64,000 nt of DNA, from assembly GCF_004360225.1 (NCBI RefSeq), contig NZ_SNUA01000010.1, positions 62,001 through 126,000 of the forward strand. The letters are read 5' to 3'. The notes beneath the pieces are model-generated. The model made no database searches, was not told the origin of the DNA, and was given only the letters and a program-made list of their open reading frames with translations. Made by a program: the position numbers and the translations under genes. Shown in pieces: positions 1 to 4,135 of this stretch. Source of the DNA: Alcanivorax sp. 24. Lineage in GTDB: Bacteria; Pseudomonadota; Gammaproteobacteria; Pseudomonadales; Alcanivoracaceae. The number at the start of each line of letters is the position of its first letter. Positions within the stretch are counted from its first letter, which is position 1.

Positions 1-200
1 TCGACCCGGACAGCCAGATGACGGTGATGACCCAGAACCGGGACGGTGAAACCACTCTGATTACCAAGGACCGGGAAAGCATCAAGGTACAGAAAGTCTC
101 CGACCGGGAGTTGAGTGGTGCTGGCACACGATTGGGCACCGCGTACCGGTTGCCTGACGGGCAGGTGGTCTATGTGCCGGAAGATGGGGTGTCTCCCTGA
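1..200 (+). CDS. DUF2149 family protein, C-terminal part (5' truncated by window edge)
   Basis: Only the last 66 or so codons are in the window; the frame is open from base 3. The C-terminus reads VSDREL, then RLGTAYRLPDGQVVYVPE, which matches my memory of the conserved tail of DUF2149 proteins. These are small single-membrane-span proteins that often accompany ExbB/TolQ-type and CobN-like genes. The stop overlaps the start of the next gene (ATGA, positions 200-203 region), so the two are translationally coupled. Such sets (outer-membrane receptor, ExbB-like, DUF2149, CobN-like) are associated with tetrapyrrole or metal uptake. The role here is inferred from context; the upstream partners lie outside the window. 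Confidence 0.6.
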   Translation, partial: DPDSQMTVMTQNRDGETTLITKDRESIKVQKVSDRELSGAGTRLGTAYRLPDGQVVYVPEDGVSP

Positions 201-3200
201 TGATGACATGGCAACGGACTCCGGTATCGCTGTTGATGGTGCTGGGCAGCCTGCTTGTTACGGTAACGGCATGGGCCGATACGCCACGTATCGGCCTGGT
301 GTACGACGGTGGAGAAAGTACCGGGGCTGGCGAAATTCTACGCGCCGCCCAGGGGCTGGATGATCGTGCCACGGTCATCGTTTACGCCTCGGGGGATGGT
401 GGTCATTCTTTGGATCAGGCCGGTATAGAGGCGGAACTGGCCGGGTTGGATCTGCTATTCGTGGATGGCGACTCGGATAATGCCCGTACTCATGCCCGAT
501 TGCTCCGGAGGGCCGGCGAGCATACCCGATTGGTGGTGGTCTCGCCGGGCGCTGACCTGAATGGCAATGTGGATGTCCATCAACATCCGGATCTGACCGG
601 TTACTGGCGCATGCCGTCGCAGGTCAATTACCGGGGACTGATCGCTTATCTCGCGGTGTTGGCCGGTGGTAACGACGGGGCGCCGGTACCGGCGCCCCGT
701 TCCTATCCGGAGCAGGGCTTTTACCGGCCGGGGGAGCCCGATCTGTTCGCCGACTGGCGGAGCTACCAGCGCGCGGGCGCCGAGGTGGACGAGGCTACAC
801 CGCGCATCGGCATCCTGTTCCATCGCAACCACTATCTGCAGGAAGACCTGGCCGGTGTGGACGCCCTGATCGAAGCCGTCCGGGCGGAAGGTGGCGAACC
901 GGTGGCGCTGGCTGGCACTGGTGACGCCCGCCTCGATCTTTTGCTGGACGATCAGGGTATTCCCAGGGTGGACGCAGTAATCTTTCAGGGCACCGTTCTT
1001 GATCGTGACGACCTGAATCAGGGCATTGAACGGGCCCGGGCCCTGGGTGTTCCCGTGCTTTCCGCGTTGCATATTCGTCACCAGAGTGGCGAAGCGTACC
1101 GGCAATCAGCTCATGGTCTGGCGCCACGTAACTCGGGAGACATCGCCCGGGGGGAACGGGCGGGCATATTCGAACCGCTGGCGGTATCCGCTGCCGGGGA
1201 GCGCGGGTTCGGTCGGCGCGACGTTCTCCCCATGGTAGAACAAACCCGTTGGCGTGCCGCCCGGGCGGTGGCCTGGGCGCATCTGCACCGCCGGGCCAAC
1301 GCCGAAAAGAAAGTGGTGTTCACCTTCTGGAGCGAAAGCGGCGGTAAGGCGGATCTGGGTGCCGATCCCGACGATTTTCTGGACGTGCCCGGCACTCTGA
1401 TTGAGGTGCTCAAGGCGATGAAGGCACGCGGCTATGATCTGGGCGACGCCCCCTTGCCGTCCCGGGACCAACTGAGCCGCCAACTGGTGGACGAAGCGTC
1501 CAATATCGGTGGTTGGGCTCCGGCGTCGATCCAACAACGTGCGGCAAGGACAGACGCCATTCGTGTGCCTCTGGCGCGTTACCAGGAATGGTTCGGGGCG
1601 CTGCCCGCCCGGCTACGAGAGCGCATGGGGTCAGTCTGGGGCGCGCCTCCGGGGAACGTCATGGTGGCCGGCGACGGCGACGAACGTGTCTTGCTGCTAC
1701 CGGCGTTGCGCTTCGGTAACATTCTGATCGCCGCGCATCCTGCCTGGGGTTACCTGGAAAACGACGCAGCGCTGAAGTCGCCGGACGCCCTGCCGCCTCA
1801 TCATCAATACGCCGCCTTCTTCCTCTGGCTGCGGAACGACTTCAAGGCGGACGCCTGGGTCAGCCTGTTCAGCAACATCGTCCTGCAACCCGGCAAAAGC
1901 GAGGGCCCGCTGGTGGACGATGCCATTGGCCAGCTGCTGGGGGCCACTCCCCACATCCACCCGGAACGCCTGGGAGGAGCCGGCGGTCTGGCCAATAAGC
2001 GAAAAGCGCTGGCGCTCACTCCCGGCTGGTACAACCTGGTGGTGCCCACCGGCGAATTGACCACTCTGACAACCTTGAAGACGCTGTTACAACGCTACGA
2101 TGATCTGGTCGGCCATGATCAGCTTCGCAGCGGGGCACGCCGGGCAATTCGCGACGAGGTCGCGGCCCTGGGCCTGGATCGAGCATTGTCCTGGGACGCC
2201 AGCAACGTGCCCTTCGAGCGCCTGCGCGAAGAGGTGGTTGGCCATATTGCCAATCTGGAACAGCAGAGTATGCCTTACGGCACTCGGGTACTCGGTCGGG
2301 CACCCACCGGAGACGCCCTGGCTGGCATGGTCACGGCCATGCTCACAGGCAATGGCCAGGAGCTCCTGCCCCCGGCCCTGCTTGATGCCGCCCTGAACGG
2401 GGCCAACGAAAAGGCACTGATCGCCGCCAACGACGGGCCCCTGTCCGATACCCGGCGGCAAACGGTACAACAGGCCCAGGACTACGCTGACGGTTTGCGC
2501 GGAGCGCCCCGGGAGGTCAGCGCCATCCTGGATGCCCTGGAAGGGCGCTGGATTGAGCCAGGGCCCATGTTTTCACCGTTGCGCCGCGCTGACAGCCTGC
2601 CGGTGGGCCGCAACCTCTACACCTTCGACCCGGCGATCATGCCAACACCGGAGGCGGAAGCCACTGGCTGGCAACTGGCCGAGGACACGGTGGCCACCTT
2701 TCAGGAAAAGCACCAGGGCCAACCTCCGAAACATCTCGCCTTCGTGTTGTTTTCCAGCGAAACAACCCGCAACCAGGGGGTCAATGAAGCGCACATCCTG
2801 GCTCTGCTGGGCGTACACGTCGAGCGGGACAGCCAGGGCCGTGTCTCGGGTCTTCGGCGCCTTTCCCGGGAACAATTGGGACGCCCTCGCGTGGACGTCA
2901 CGGTCACCGCCAGCGGTACCTACCGGGATCATTATGCCGGACTTATGGATCTGATCGACCGGGCAGTACGTTTGGCCGCCGCCGCGCCGGAGGACGATAA
3001 TCCCGTGGCCGCCTCCAGTCGCCAAAGAGCAGAGCGGCTCAAAGCCTCTGGCGCATCCGCCTCCGAGGCGGATGCCTTATCCACGGCCCGGGTGTTTTCC
3101 GCGGCGCCGGGGGCATACTCGCCGAACATCCAGTTCCTGGCCCGTTCCGGAGACCACCGTGGTGGCCAGGCGGACATGGCGGCGCTGTATCGTGATCGCA

Positions 3201-4135
3201 TGGGGCATGTGTATGGTGGCGGCCGGGACGGCGATGCCATGCCGGCGCTGTTCTCGGACACTGTGAAGGATCTGCAGGGCGCAGTCTTACCACGCTCCAG
3301 CGACGTCAATGGCATGCTTGATCACCCCATGTCGGCTGCTTTTCTGGGTGGTTTGGATATGGCCGCCCGCGCCGCCGGAGGCCAGGGCGCGGAACTTTAT
3401 GTAAGCCGCCCGGAAAGAGCTGGCGGCGGATCTCTGCAAAGCGCGGCCAAGGCGGTCCAGGAGGAACTCTTCACCCGTTATTTCAATCCGCGTTGGATTC
3501 AGCGGATGCAGGATCACGGCTACGACGGCGCGCGCGCATTCATGTTTCTCACCGATCAGCTTGATCTTTGGAATAGCACCACCGACCAAGTGGTGGGCAG
3601 CGCTGACTGGGCCAAGGTGAAGGCGGTCTACGTGGATGACGAATACGGCCTGGATATGCGCGATTTCCTGGATCGTCATAACCCCTACGCGGAGCAGGGG
3701 TTGTTGGCCAATCTGCTTGGAGCCGCGGAGCGTGGCCAATGGGACGCCAGCGACGCGGATAAGCGCCAAGTGGCCACGAGGTTGGTGGAGAGTGCCCTGG
3801 CCCATGGTAGCGCCTGTAACGCCAACCTTTGCCGCAACGAGACGCTGACCCGCTCCATTGAGGTGGCATTGGAACAGGCACCGGGTGGCAAGGCGCTGGC
3901 ACGCCGTTACCGTCAGGCAGTGCGGATGGCCACTGGCACAGCTCCCGCGTTGACGGCCGCGTCGCCGGGGCGGAGTGGCGGCGCCCCGGCCGAGGTGACA
4001 GGTCGTGTCATGGAAACCGTGGCGCGTCCCGCGGTGTCGGCCAATACCGTCGGCCAGCCGGCCACCATGCTGTTTCTGGGGGGCGCGCTGCTGCTGATCG
4101 GTCTTGGATTCTGCCTGGAGTGGCGCCGCCGCTGA
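200..4135 (+). CDS. Exported CobN/Mg-chelatase-H-like protein (possible tetrapyrrole dechelatase)
   Basis: 1311 residues, typical of the CobN/BchH large-subunit fold. An N-terminal Sec signal peptide (about residues 1-27, cleavage near AWA-DTP) and a C-terminal membrane span followed by EWRRR (about 1287-1311) place the body in the periplasm, unlike cytoplasmic CobN. The PPHH-YAAFFLWLR and QPGK regions mark the chelatase core. However, the family signature H-x-G-x-H-G-x-x-E before PGK reads W553 V S L F557 S N I V561, so both histidines and the glutamate are missing; a later AKRR-like block is reduced to NKRK (about 600). It is coupled to a DUF2149 gene, as in the HmuSTUV-type haem/cobalamin sets of Bacteroidota. 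A role in handling haem, cobalamin or another tetrapyrrole at the membrane is inferred. A standard cobalt-insertion role is unlikely. A second ATG at 203 is an alternative start. Confidence 0.8.
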   Translation: MMTWQRTPVSLLMVLGSLLVTVTAWADTPRIGLVYDGGESTGAGEILRAAQGLDDRATVIVYASGDGGHSLDQAGIEAELAGLDLLFVDGDSDNARTHARLLRRAGEHTRLVVVSPGADLNGNVDVHQHPDLTGYWRMPSQVNYRGLIAYLAVLAGGNDGAPVPAPRSYPEQGFYRPGEPDLFADWRSYQRAGAEVDEATPRIGILFHRNHYLQEDLAGVDALIEAVRAEGGEPVALAGTGDARLDLLLDDQGIPRVDAVIFQGTVLDRDDLNQGIERARALGVPVLSALHIRHQSGEAYRQSAHGLAPRNSGDIARGERAGIFEPLAVSAAGERGFGRRDVLPMVEQTRWRAARAVAWAHLHRRANAEKKVVFTFWSESGGKADLGADPDDFLDVPGTLIEVLKAMKARGYDLGDAPLPSRDQLSRQLVDEASNIGGWAPASIQQRAARTDAIRVPLARYQEWFGALPARLRERMGSVWGAPPGNVMVAGDGDERVLLLPALRFGNILIAAHPAWGYLENDAALKSPDALPPHHQYAAFFLWLRNDFKADAWVSLFSNIVLQPGKSEGPLVDDAIGQLLGATPHIHPERLGGAGGLANKRKALALTPGWYNLVVPTGELTTLTTLKTLLQRYDDLVGHDQLRSGARRAIRDEVAALGLDRALSWDASNVPFERLREEVVGHIANLEQQSMPYGTRVLGRAPTGDALAGMVTAMLTGNGQELLPPALLDAALNGANEKALIAANDGPLSDTRRQTVQQAQDYADGLRGAPREVSAILDALEGRWIEPGPMFSPLRRADSLPVGRNLYTFDPAIMPTPEAEATGWQLAEDTVATFQEKHQGQPPKHLAFVLFSSETTRNQGVNEAHILALLGVHVERDSQGRVSGLRRLSREQLGRPRVDVTVTASGTYRDHYAGLMDLIDRAVRLAAAAPEDDNPVAASSRQRAERLKASGASASEADALSTARVFSAAPGAYSPNIQFLARSGDHRGGQADMAALYRDRMGHVYGGGRDGDAMPALFSDTVKDLQGAVLPRSSDVNGMLDHPMSAAFLGGLDMAARAAGGQGAELYVSRPERAGGGSLQSAAKAVQEELFTRYFNPRWIQRMQDHGYDGARAFMFLTDQLDLWNSTTDQVVGSADWAKVKAVYVDDEYGLDMRDFLDRHNPYAEQGLLANLLGAAERGQWDASDADKRQVATRLVESALAHGSACNANLCRNETLTRSIEVALEQAPGGKALARRYRQAVRMATGTAPALTAASPGRSGGAPAEVTGRVMETVARPAVSANTVGQPATMLFLGGALLLIGLGFCLEWRRR

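Follow-up and report, generated by a model that had tools for sequence, protein, structure and literature searches.

What does a protein built on the CobN chelatase fold do when the residues associated with chelation are no longer there? The question is raised by a gene at the start of a 64,000-nucleotide stretch of Alcanivorax sp. 24 DNA (the whole stretch analyzed, hereafter the window), where an intact open reading frame at 200–4135 (+), the final gene of its operon, encodes a CobN/HmuS-type protein of 1311 amino acids (coding part 200–4132), here termed W. The original prediction concerned positions 1853–2035 (residues 552–612, AWVSLFSNIVLQPGKSEGPLVDDAIGQLLGATPHIHPERLGGAGGLANKRKALALTPGWYN); it described a CobN-like protein without the block H-x-G-x-H-G-x-x-E, which may handle a tetrapyrrole in a different manner or serve only as a transport partner.

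Results

Family membership and architecture of W

The large fold is retained, as originally claimed: Pfam PF02514 matches residues 134–1186 of W at 749.4 bits (cut-off 24.5) and is covered nearly at full length (profile positions 2–1088 of 1090), which assigns W to the CobN/Mg-chelatase superfamily. CobN cobaltochelatase and ChlH-BchH magnesium chelatase belong to this family too, which they share with W over the entire length of the profile. W scored below every NCBIfam CobN/BchH equivalog cut-off compared (its highest score was 574.9 bits, where the cut-off is 1248), and does not reach that of the aerobic CobN cobaltochelatase. Its nearest solved relative by sequence is the haem de-chelatase HmuS of Bacteroides thetaiotaomicron (PDB 9d26, PMC12583661; E = 2.4e-88), with which it shares family membership over most of its length, followed by CobN (7c6o) and then ChlH. 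Judged by sequence, W is a member of the CobN/ChlH/HmuS fold.

A signal peptide and a C-terminal membrane span had also been proposed, and hydropathy predicts both: a signal peptide-like N-terminus at residues 1–26 (200–277, +), with its hydrophobic segment at residues 8–26, and a span at residues 1288–1306 (4061–4117, +). Directly ahead of the span lies a juxtamembrane motif, [VL]-x-G-x-x-[ML]-E (3995–4021, +), which by eye occupies the same position in 14 of 18 anchored sequences, W among them. HmuS is reported to be exported and membrane-anchored, as W is by hydropathy, whereas CobN and ChlH-BchH are described as lacking N- and C-terminal membrane segments (PMC13227078). An AlphaFold model of W residues 27–1200, computed from W and one orthologue (two sequences), reached a pLDDT of 35.2 and a pTM of 0.23, values too low for the model to be usable.

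The chelatase residues are missing from W

W was aligned against HmuS (9d26) and 23 other family members. The motif H-x-G-x-H-[GA]-x-x-E is absent from W, as predicted, and is kept in all 33 other family sequences examined, i.e., the 23 plus ten further ones, one from genome G252 and nine from plasmid records (8 of the 11 matching records; H5, H7 and H11 were left out). One of these, L104, reads HTGTHGTQE and was scored intact by eye. In W, residues 555–563 (1862–1888, +) read S-L-F-S-N-I-V-L-Q and align with HmuS His534-x-Gly-x-His538-Gly-x-x-Glu542, so that S-L-F-S-N-I stands where HmuS has HFG(T/A)HG with the catalytic His538. The loop carrying the former motif is two residues shorter in W ahead of PGK and, according to where this gap is placed, His538 falls opposite F557 or N559, and Glu542 opposite V561 or Q563. 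The residue assignments given originally are right in other respects, but the first His corresponds to S555, not to W553.

The surrounding landmarks also behave as foreseen: PGK is intact, AKRR has become NKRK, and the S-H/Y or D-H that should follow it is gone. In addition, the Glu ahead of AKRR (HmuS Glu577), present in 23 of 23 others, is missing. No histidine occurs in W residues 536–584, which excludes, at the sequence level, that the lost His has merely moved elsewhere nearby; with the facing ligands lost as well, a tetrapyrrole chelatase with its residues shifted nearby was rejected at that level.

These facing ligands belong to the domain V motif (residues 1033–1051, 3296–3352, +; SSDVNGMLDHPMSAAFLGG). 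There, the Asp found in 23 of 23 others (HmuS Asp1208) is P1043, H1042 has been gained, and in an ungapped alignment HmuS His1209 and Glu1212 correspond to M1044 and A1047. Where HmuS has LSLDHxxEFMGG, W reads NGMLDHPMSAAFLGG; many anchored relatives have DDxxQ, with Asp in place of His1209. A further loop (residues 786–800, 2555–2599, +) carries G-G-D in nearly all 23 relatives (D in all 23, each G in 22) and M790-F791-S792 in W; this loop weighs less, because classical CobN rows likewise lack G-G-D there. Unlike HmuS, W is thus without equivalents of His538, Glu577, Asp1208/His1209 and Glu1212. It also lacks the long methionine-rich domain IV insertion of HmuS, with 81 residues (673–753) separating the aligned stretches in place of 260 (655–914). 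The changes listed are common to W and its 73%-identical orthologue (L008/L019), and are therefore not sequencing errors.

W has gained residues, and its changed segments are under strong constraint

The 23 others share 106 near-invariant columns; W departs from these at 29, and its orthologue does so too at 27 of the 29. The differences are concentrated in three cleft segments (residues 536–608, 786–800 and 1033–1051), with 18 of 30 columns changed, compared with 11 of 76 elsewhere (Fisher p = 6e-6, a value that flatters the contrast because the segments were picked after the differences had been seen). The domain III segment alone (residues 536–608, 1805–2023, +) has 13 of 23 near-invariant positions changed, versus 16 of 83 (p = 0.001). 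In a separate loss count, W loses 17 of 65 and the other 16 sequences at most 12 of 77; the soluble outgroup rows L047–L053 lose 29–31 of 105, which is no control for W, as the voters there all belong to the other clade. The in-frame TGA codons in L047 and L049–L053 probably reflect alignment past the stop, the open frames in these rows being 1239–1322 amino acids long.

Identity between W and its orthologue is 949 of 1311 residues overall (about 72–73%) and 92–98% in slightly widened versions of the three segments (78/85 at 536–620, 39/40 at 781–820 and 39/40 at 1021–1060), the best conserved among the regions compared in this pair. In an intact-motif pair of similar overall identity (L016/L012, 938/1303), the corresponding values are 83/89, 32/39 and 37/40; as two of the three segments are highly conserved there too, conservation shows that the site matters, not what its job is. 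By the Nei-Gojobori method, the full-length comparison of W with the orthologue gives a dN/dS of 0.19, and the three segments give about 0.04, 0.01 and 0.01, values that are rough because dS is near 1. In a tree, the stem of the pair carries 1.89 changes per site and its tips 0.20 and 0.25, although with such long branches the attachment of the stem is uncertain. On these sequence comparisons, the pattern is one of a burst of change that then gave way to strict conservation, and W is not a decaying gene. The loss of otherwise invariant residues is what a former chelatase gene in decay would display, yet the frames are intact in two species (1311 and 1316 amino acids) and the constraint, lowest in dN/dS within the very segments that changed, already contradicts this reading, whose probability we put close to nil; pseudogene status was rejected on dN/dS.

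W has gained residues as well as lost them. H513 (1736–1738, +) is Gln in 21 of the 23 others, and H585, H587 and E589 lie together at 1952–1966 (+); all 23 others have Tyr at the positions of H587 and E589, and H585, absent from the 23, is present as His566 in HmuS and in two rows of the further set. Could W still be a chelatase or de-chelatase, working on a tetrapyrrole or another chelate in the same cleft through H513, H585, H587, H1042, M1044 and E589 as new ligands? The changed segments show strong conservation instead of erosion, the histidine gains lie in or near them, and HmuS too has the histidine seen in W as H585. Neither of the facing catalytic His/carboxylate pairs is left, however, the first loop is two residues shorter, and in HmuS the replacement of His538 by Ala was by itself reported to abolish haem conversion (PMC12583661). 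We consider such a re-equipped enzyme unlikely.

W is encoded with a receptor and a membrane channel

The W operon comprises, in order, genes for a TonB-dependent receptor, an ExbB-type channel, a DUF2149 protein and W. The receptor gene lies upstream, outside the window (L003:9200–11281), and is followed by the MotA/ExbB gene (L003:11294–11848; MotA_ExbB, 54.7 bits, cut-off 22.9) and the DUF2149 gene (L003:11841–12200; 90.8 bits, cut-off 27.1), which begins 160 bases ahead of the window, occupies window positions 1–200 (+) with its last 200 bases, and overlaps the W start with its stop. The orthologous operon has the same genes, with receptors 80% and ExbB-type proteins 73% identical.

ExbB-type and DUF2149 genes were found in the examined flanks of 16 of 18 C-terminally anchored family members (L042 and L046 being the exceptions) and of none of 7 soluble ones; the small profiles used for this count derive from 5 or 6 operons, themselves among those counted. 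The DUF2149 protein has one N-terminal membrane span by hydropathy and an Asp conserved in 16 of 16 sequences. Its layout resembles that of ExbD, but homology to ExbD found no support: hhalign gave a probability of 1.7% against an ExbD profile made from the 13 of 24 ExbD loci that yielded usable sequence. Because the genome has 6 ordinary ExbD genes, the receptor need not draw its energy from the W module.

Like the W operon, that of HmuS is described as combining a TonB-dependent receptor with an ExbB-type protein and a small membrane protein. HmuV is described as lacking any known homologue (PMC13227078). Unlike the HmuS operon, that of W has a predicted Zur-type promoter, and by eye no HmuY or HmuT gene was recognized alongside it.

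Two plasmid-borne CobN modules showed further arrangements. On Trichlorobacter lovleyi plasmid pGLOV01 (L103), genes for a receptor, DUF2162, ExbB, DUF2149, CobN, ExbB, ExbD, TonB and a second receptor are consecutive, i.e., a CobN module adjoins an ordinary TonB system. On Runella slithyformis plasmid pRUNSL01 (L104), a receptor, a protein annotated as urease accessory, ExbB, DUF2149 and CobN are followed by hypC-hypD-hypE, which hints that this module serves nickel.

The W operon is predicted to be controlled by Zur

A 15-base pattern that we take to be the consensus box of Zur, the zinc repressor, with up to two mismatches allowed, occurs at 8 places in the 4.76-Mb genome, versus 1 for the reversed control. 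On contig C5 the site accompanies genes for a FUR-family protein and a CobW-type GTPase; the other sites lie beside ribosomal protein L31 (C15), an amidohydrolase (C8) and receptors (C7, C10:24099 and C10:59077, the last at the W operon), between DksA and a second, intact CobN operon (C18), and, on C1, among neighbors without a link to zinc. The seven sites other than C1 presumably represent the Zur regulon, an assignment that draws partly on what is generally known of such regulons and partly on comparison with Pseudomonas aeruginosa. Zur targets described in the latter include znuD, rpmE2, dksA2, PA1922–PA1925 and COG0523 proteins.

A matrix trained on 5 sites outside the W operon scored the receptor promoter of the W operon at 20.4 and the orthologous promoter at 28.7; the former falls below the training sites (29.6–38.1, or 26.3–35.5 when each was left out in turn). 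Across 171 kb of partly overlapping loci, nothing besides the listed or overlapping sites exceeded 11.3, and first-order Markov resamples of the promoters matched the scores in 4 of 5000 cases for the W operon and in 0 of 5000 for the orthologue. A looser pattern did not outperform its reversed control in either G003, the genome of the orthologue (9 versus 15), or G006 (12 versus 30). Since no Zur-type site was detected in the examined flanks of 10 other CobN-module loci (best score 15.4), zinc control does not seem to be shared by CobN modules at large, with the proviso that other taxa may use other motifs. By prediction only, the W operon belongs to the Zur-regulated CobN-like kind, in which a receptor gene and a CobN-like gene stand behind a Zur site; Zur control would set the condition of expression, not the cargo.

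An operon of this kind, PA1922–PA1925 of P. aeruginosa, is reported to be zinc-repressed and to contain receptor, CobN-like and ExbD-annotated genes (PMC4542158); it thus shares with the W operon the combination of a receptor, a CobN-like protein and an ExbB/ExbD-type protein under Zur, which for W is predicted. The Alcanivorax genome itself encodes a second CobN-like protein (L004:7227–11162 (-), contig C18), which has an intact motif and is 28% identical to W. Its operon includes genes for a receptor, an ExbB-type protein and DUF2149, and is divergent from the DksA gene across a mismatch-free Zur-type box. It is likely this protein, rather than W, that corresponds to PA1922–PA1925; relative to this paralogue, W is a second copy from which the ligands have gone. 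In G003, a partial DksA_N match lies directly downstream of the W orthologue (L008:5473–5742 (-)), possibly a remnant of a Zur-regulated dksA2.

The W-operon receptor is 27% identical to the C18 receptor, which in turn is 35–37% identical to those of L023 and L024, two intact modules. Joint divergence of receptor and W was dropped as evidence, because in a third such module, L025, the receptor is distant as well (32% identical to that of C18 over 151 amino acids).

Candidate cargoes other than zinc

Among solved structures, the operon receptor is closest to those of BtuB, which raises the possibility that W, without doing chemistry, binds or carries a tetrapyrrole or corrinoid (haem, cobalamin or cobinamide), its zinc regulation being a cobalt- or B12-sparing response. 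Consistent with this, a cobW-cobN-type pair is found about 5 kb away from a receptor 46% identical to that of the W operon (L097:10673–12754 (-) in G252, one of 3 of 381 genomes with receptor matches at 1e-140), and cobalt links in the P. aeruginosa Zur regulon have been noted by the authors of PMC8531726 and PMC13083405. Against it, the best BtuB match is limited to receptor residues 60–258, and no cob, haem or porphyrin gene was recognized by eye in the W operon; moreover, the 19 kb surrounding the G252 receptor contain neither an ExbB-type nor a DUF2149 match, and the CobN of G252 keeps the motif. We judge a corrinoid or haem carrier to be distinctly unlikely. As for the original suggestion that W handles a tetrapyrrole differently, the receptor's relationship to BtuB and the G252 gene pair leave it some footing, but positive support was not found and the predicted zinc regulation points away from it.

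Upstream of the W operon, and contiguous with it, is an NRPS cluster of at least 26 kb (C10:33.1–59.0 kb, comprising L006 and L003:1846–8975). Its NRPS and ABC-type genes were recognized by eye and the others by NCBIfam; they include genes for an isochorismate synthase (535.9 bits, cut-off 475), a thiazolinyl imide reductase (330.9 bits, cut-off 188.8), a P450-like protein and a DHB-AMP ligase-like protein, the last scoring under its cut-off. This gene content suggests that the product is a thiazoline phenolate metallophore resembling yersiniabactin or pyochelin. A role for W in handling the metal complex of this metallophore was favored at first from the adjacency of the cluster, and it fits the second Zur-type site, C10:24099, beside receptors on the cluster's far side. 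Around the orthologous operon in G003, however, about 16 kb upstream and 8 kb downstream are free of such a cluster, and the thiazolinyl imide reductase is absent from that entire genome; conversely, G006 has the reductase and lacks W. As the operon occurs without the cluster and the reductase without W, the adjacency of operon and cluster is no evidence of joint function, and W as a partner of the metallophore was demoted to an improbable reading.

W-type proteins occur in two of the species sampled

Sequences of the W type turned up in the window genome, in Alloalcanivorax gelatiniphagus (G003) and in no other genome drawn, which makes 2 of the 13 genus members sampled; the orthologue in the latter has an intact frame of 1316 amino acids and is 73% identical. 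The draws, which overlap, comprised 94 relatives, 390 genomes from the order, 369 from the class and 398 from the phylum (E limits 1e-80, 1e-110, 1e-115 and 1e-70, respectively). A scan of named genomes with two N-terminal peptides returned one locus, a result with little bearing on distant relatives. In the open-access literature, judged mostly from titles and summary text, no description of a motif-less family member was found. The HmuS and PA1922–PA1925 modules are already known; the ligand-less W type is limited so far to two species.

Discussion

W has lost the catalytic ligands of its family, its changed segments are under strong constraint, and its gene follows those for a receptor, an ExbB-type channel and DUF2149. 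Of the two roles offered originally, that of a transport partner only is the one these data favor, given the receptor and channel genes in the operon, the predicted anchor that has been kept and the ligands that are gone. As W keeps the parts for coupling and has lost the chemistry, binding or transport of the receptor's cargo is the most economical reading of its function. That the cargo is zinc is suggested by the predicted Zur regulation. Most likely, W helps capture zinc rather than acting on a porphyrin; the full proposal, that W is a chelatase-dead, periplasmic, C-terminally anchored member of the fold working in zinc acquisition, seems to us to have even prospects of being right.

Under this proposal, zinc shortage would release Zur and the W operon would be expressed. 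The outer-membrane receptor would admit a zinc species to the periplasm, either free zinc or zinc in a small chelate; there W would bind it in the remodeled central cleft, or take over its carrier, and hand it on toward the inner membrane; the gained histidines H513, H587 and H1042 would suit zinc. CobN and ChlH work with partner proteins and are driven by ATP; HmuS is reported to need no ATP (PMC12583661). Unlike W, moreover, CobN and ChlH-BchH keep the motif where examined. Anchored proteins accompany the ExbB-type channel and DUF2149, and coupling to the proton-motive force is therefore a natural proposal: W may be coupled to the channel and DUF2149 through its C-terminal span, and these, by providing proton-motive force, would stand in for the ATP-driven partners that CobN and ChlH have.

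A broader idea, which we advance tentatively and rate as less than probable, is that a chelatase fold has here been turned into a device for a non-tetrapyrrole metal, driven by the proton-motive force by way of an ExbB-type channel and DUF2149 rather than by an ATPase, its cleft rebuilt with new histidines for zinc or a zinc chelate. The anchored CobN-like proteins would then be a single periplasmic module, coupled to the proton-motive force, that has been re-aimed at haem iron, at zinc and perhaps at nickel.

For a decade, zinc regulons have been seen to include CobN-like genes, which are given no settled role in the accounts available (PMC4542158, PMC13083405). If the broader idea is true, W is the branch of the anchored CobN-like module that dropped chelatase chemistry. 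With its ligands removed and its pocket, anchor and channel genes kept, W separates the two possible jobs of the module, metal removal and transport. One cell holds both W and an intact paralogue, a pair that would provide a contrast on the need for chelatase chemistry when such a module takes up zinc.
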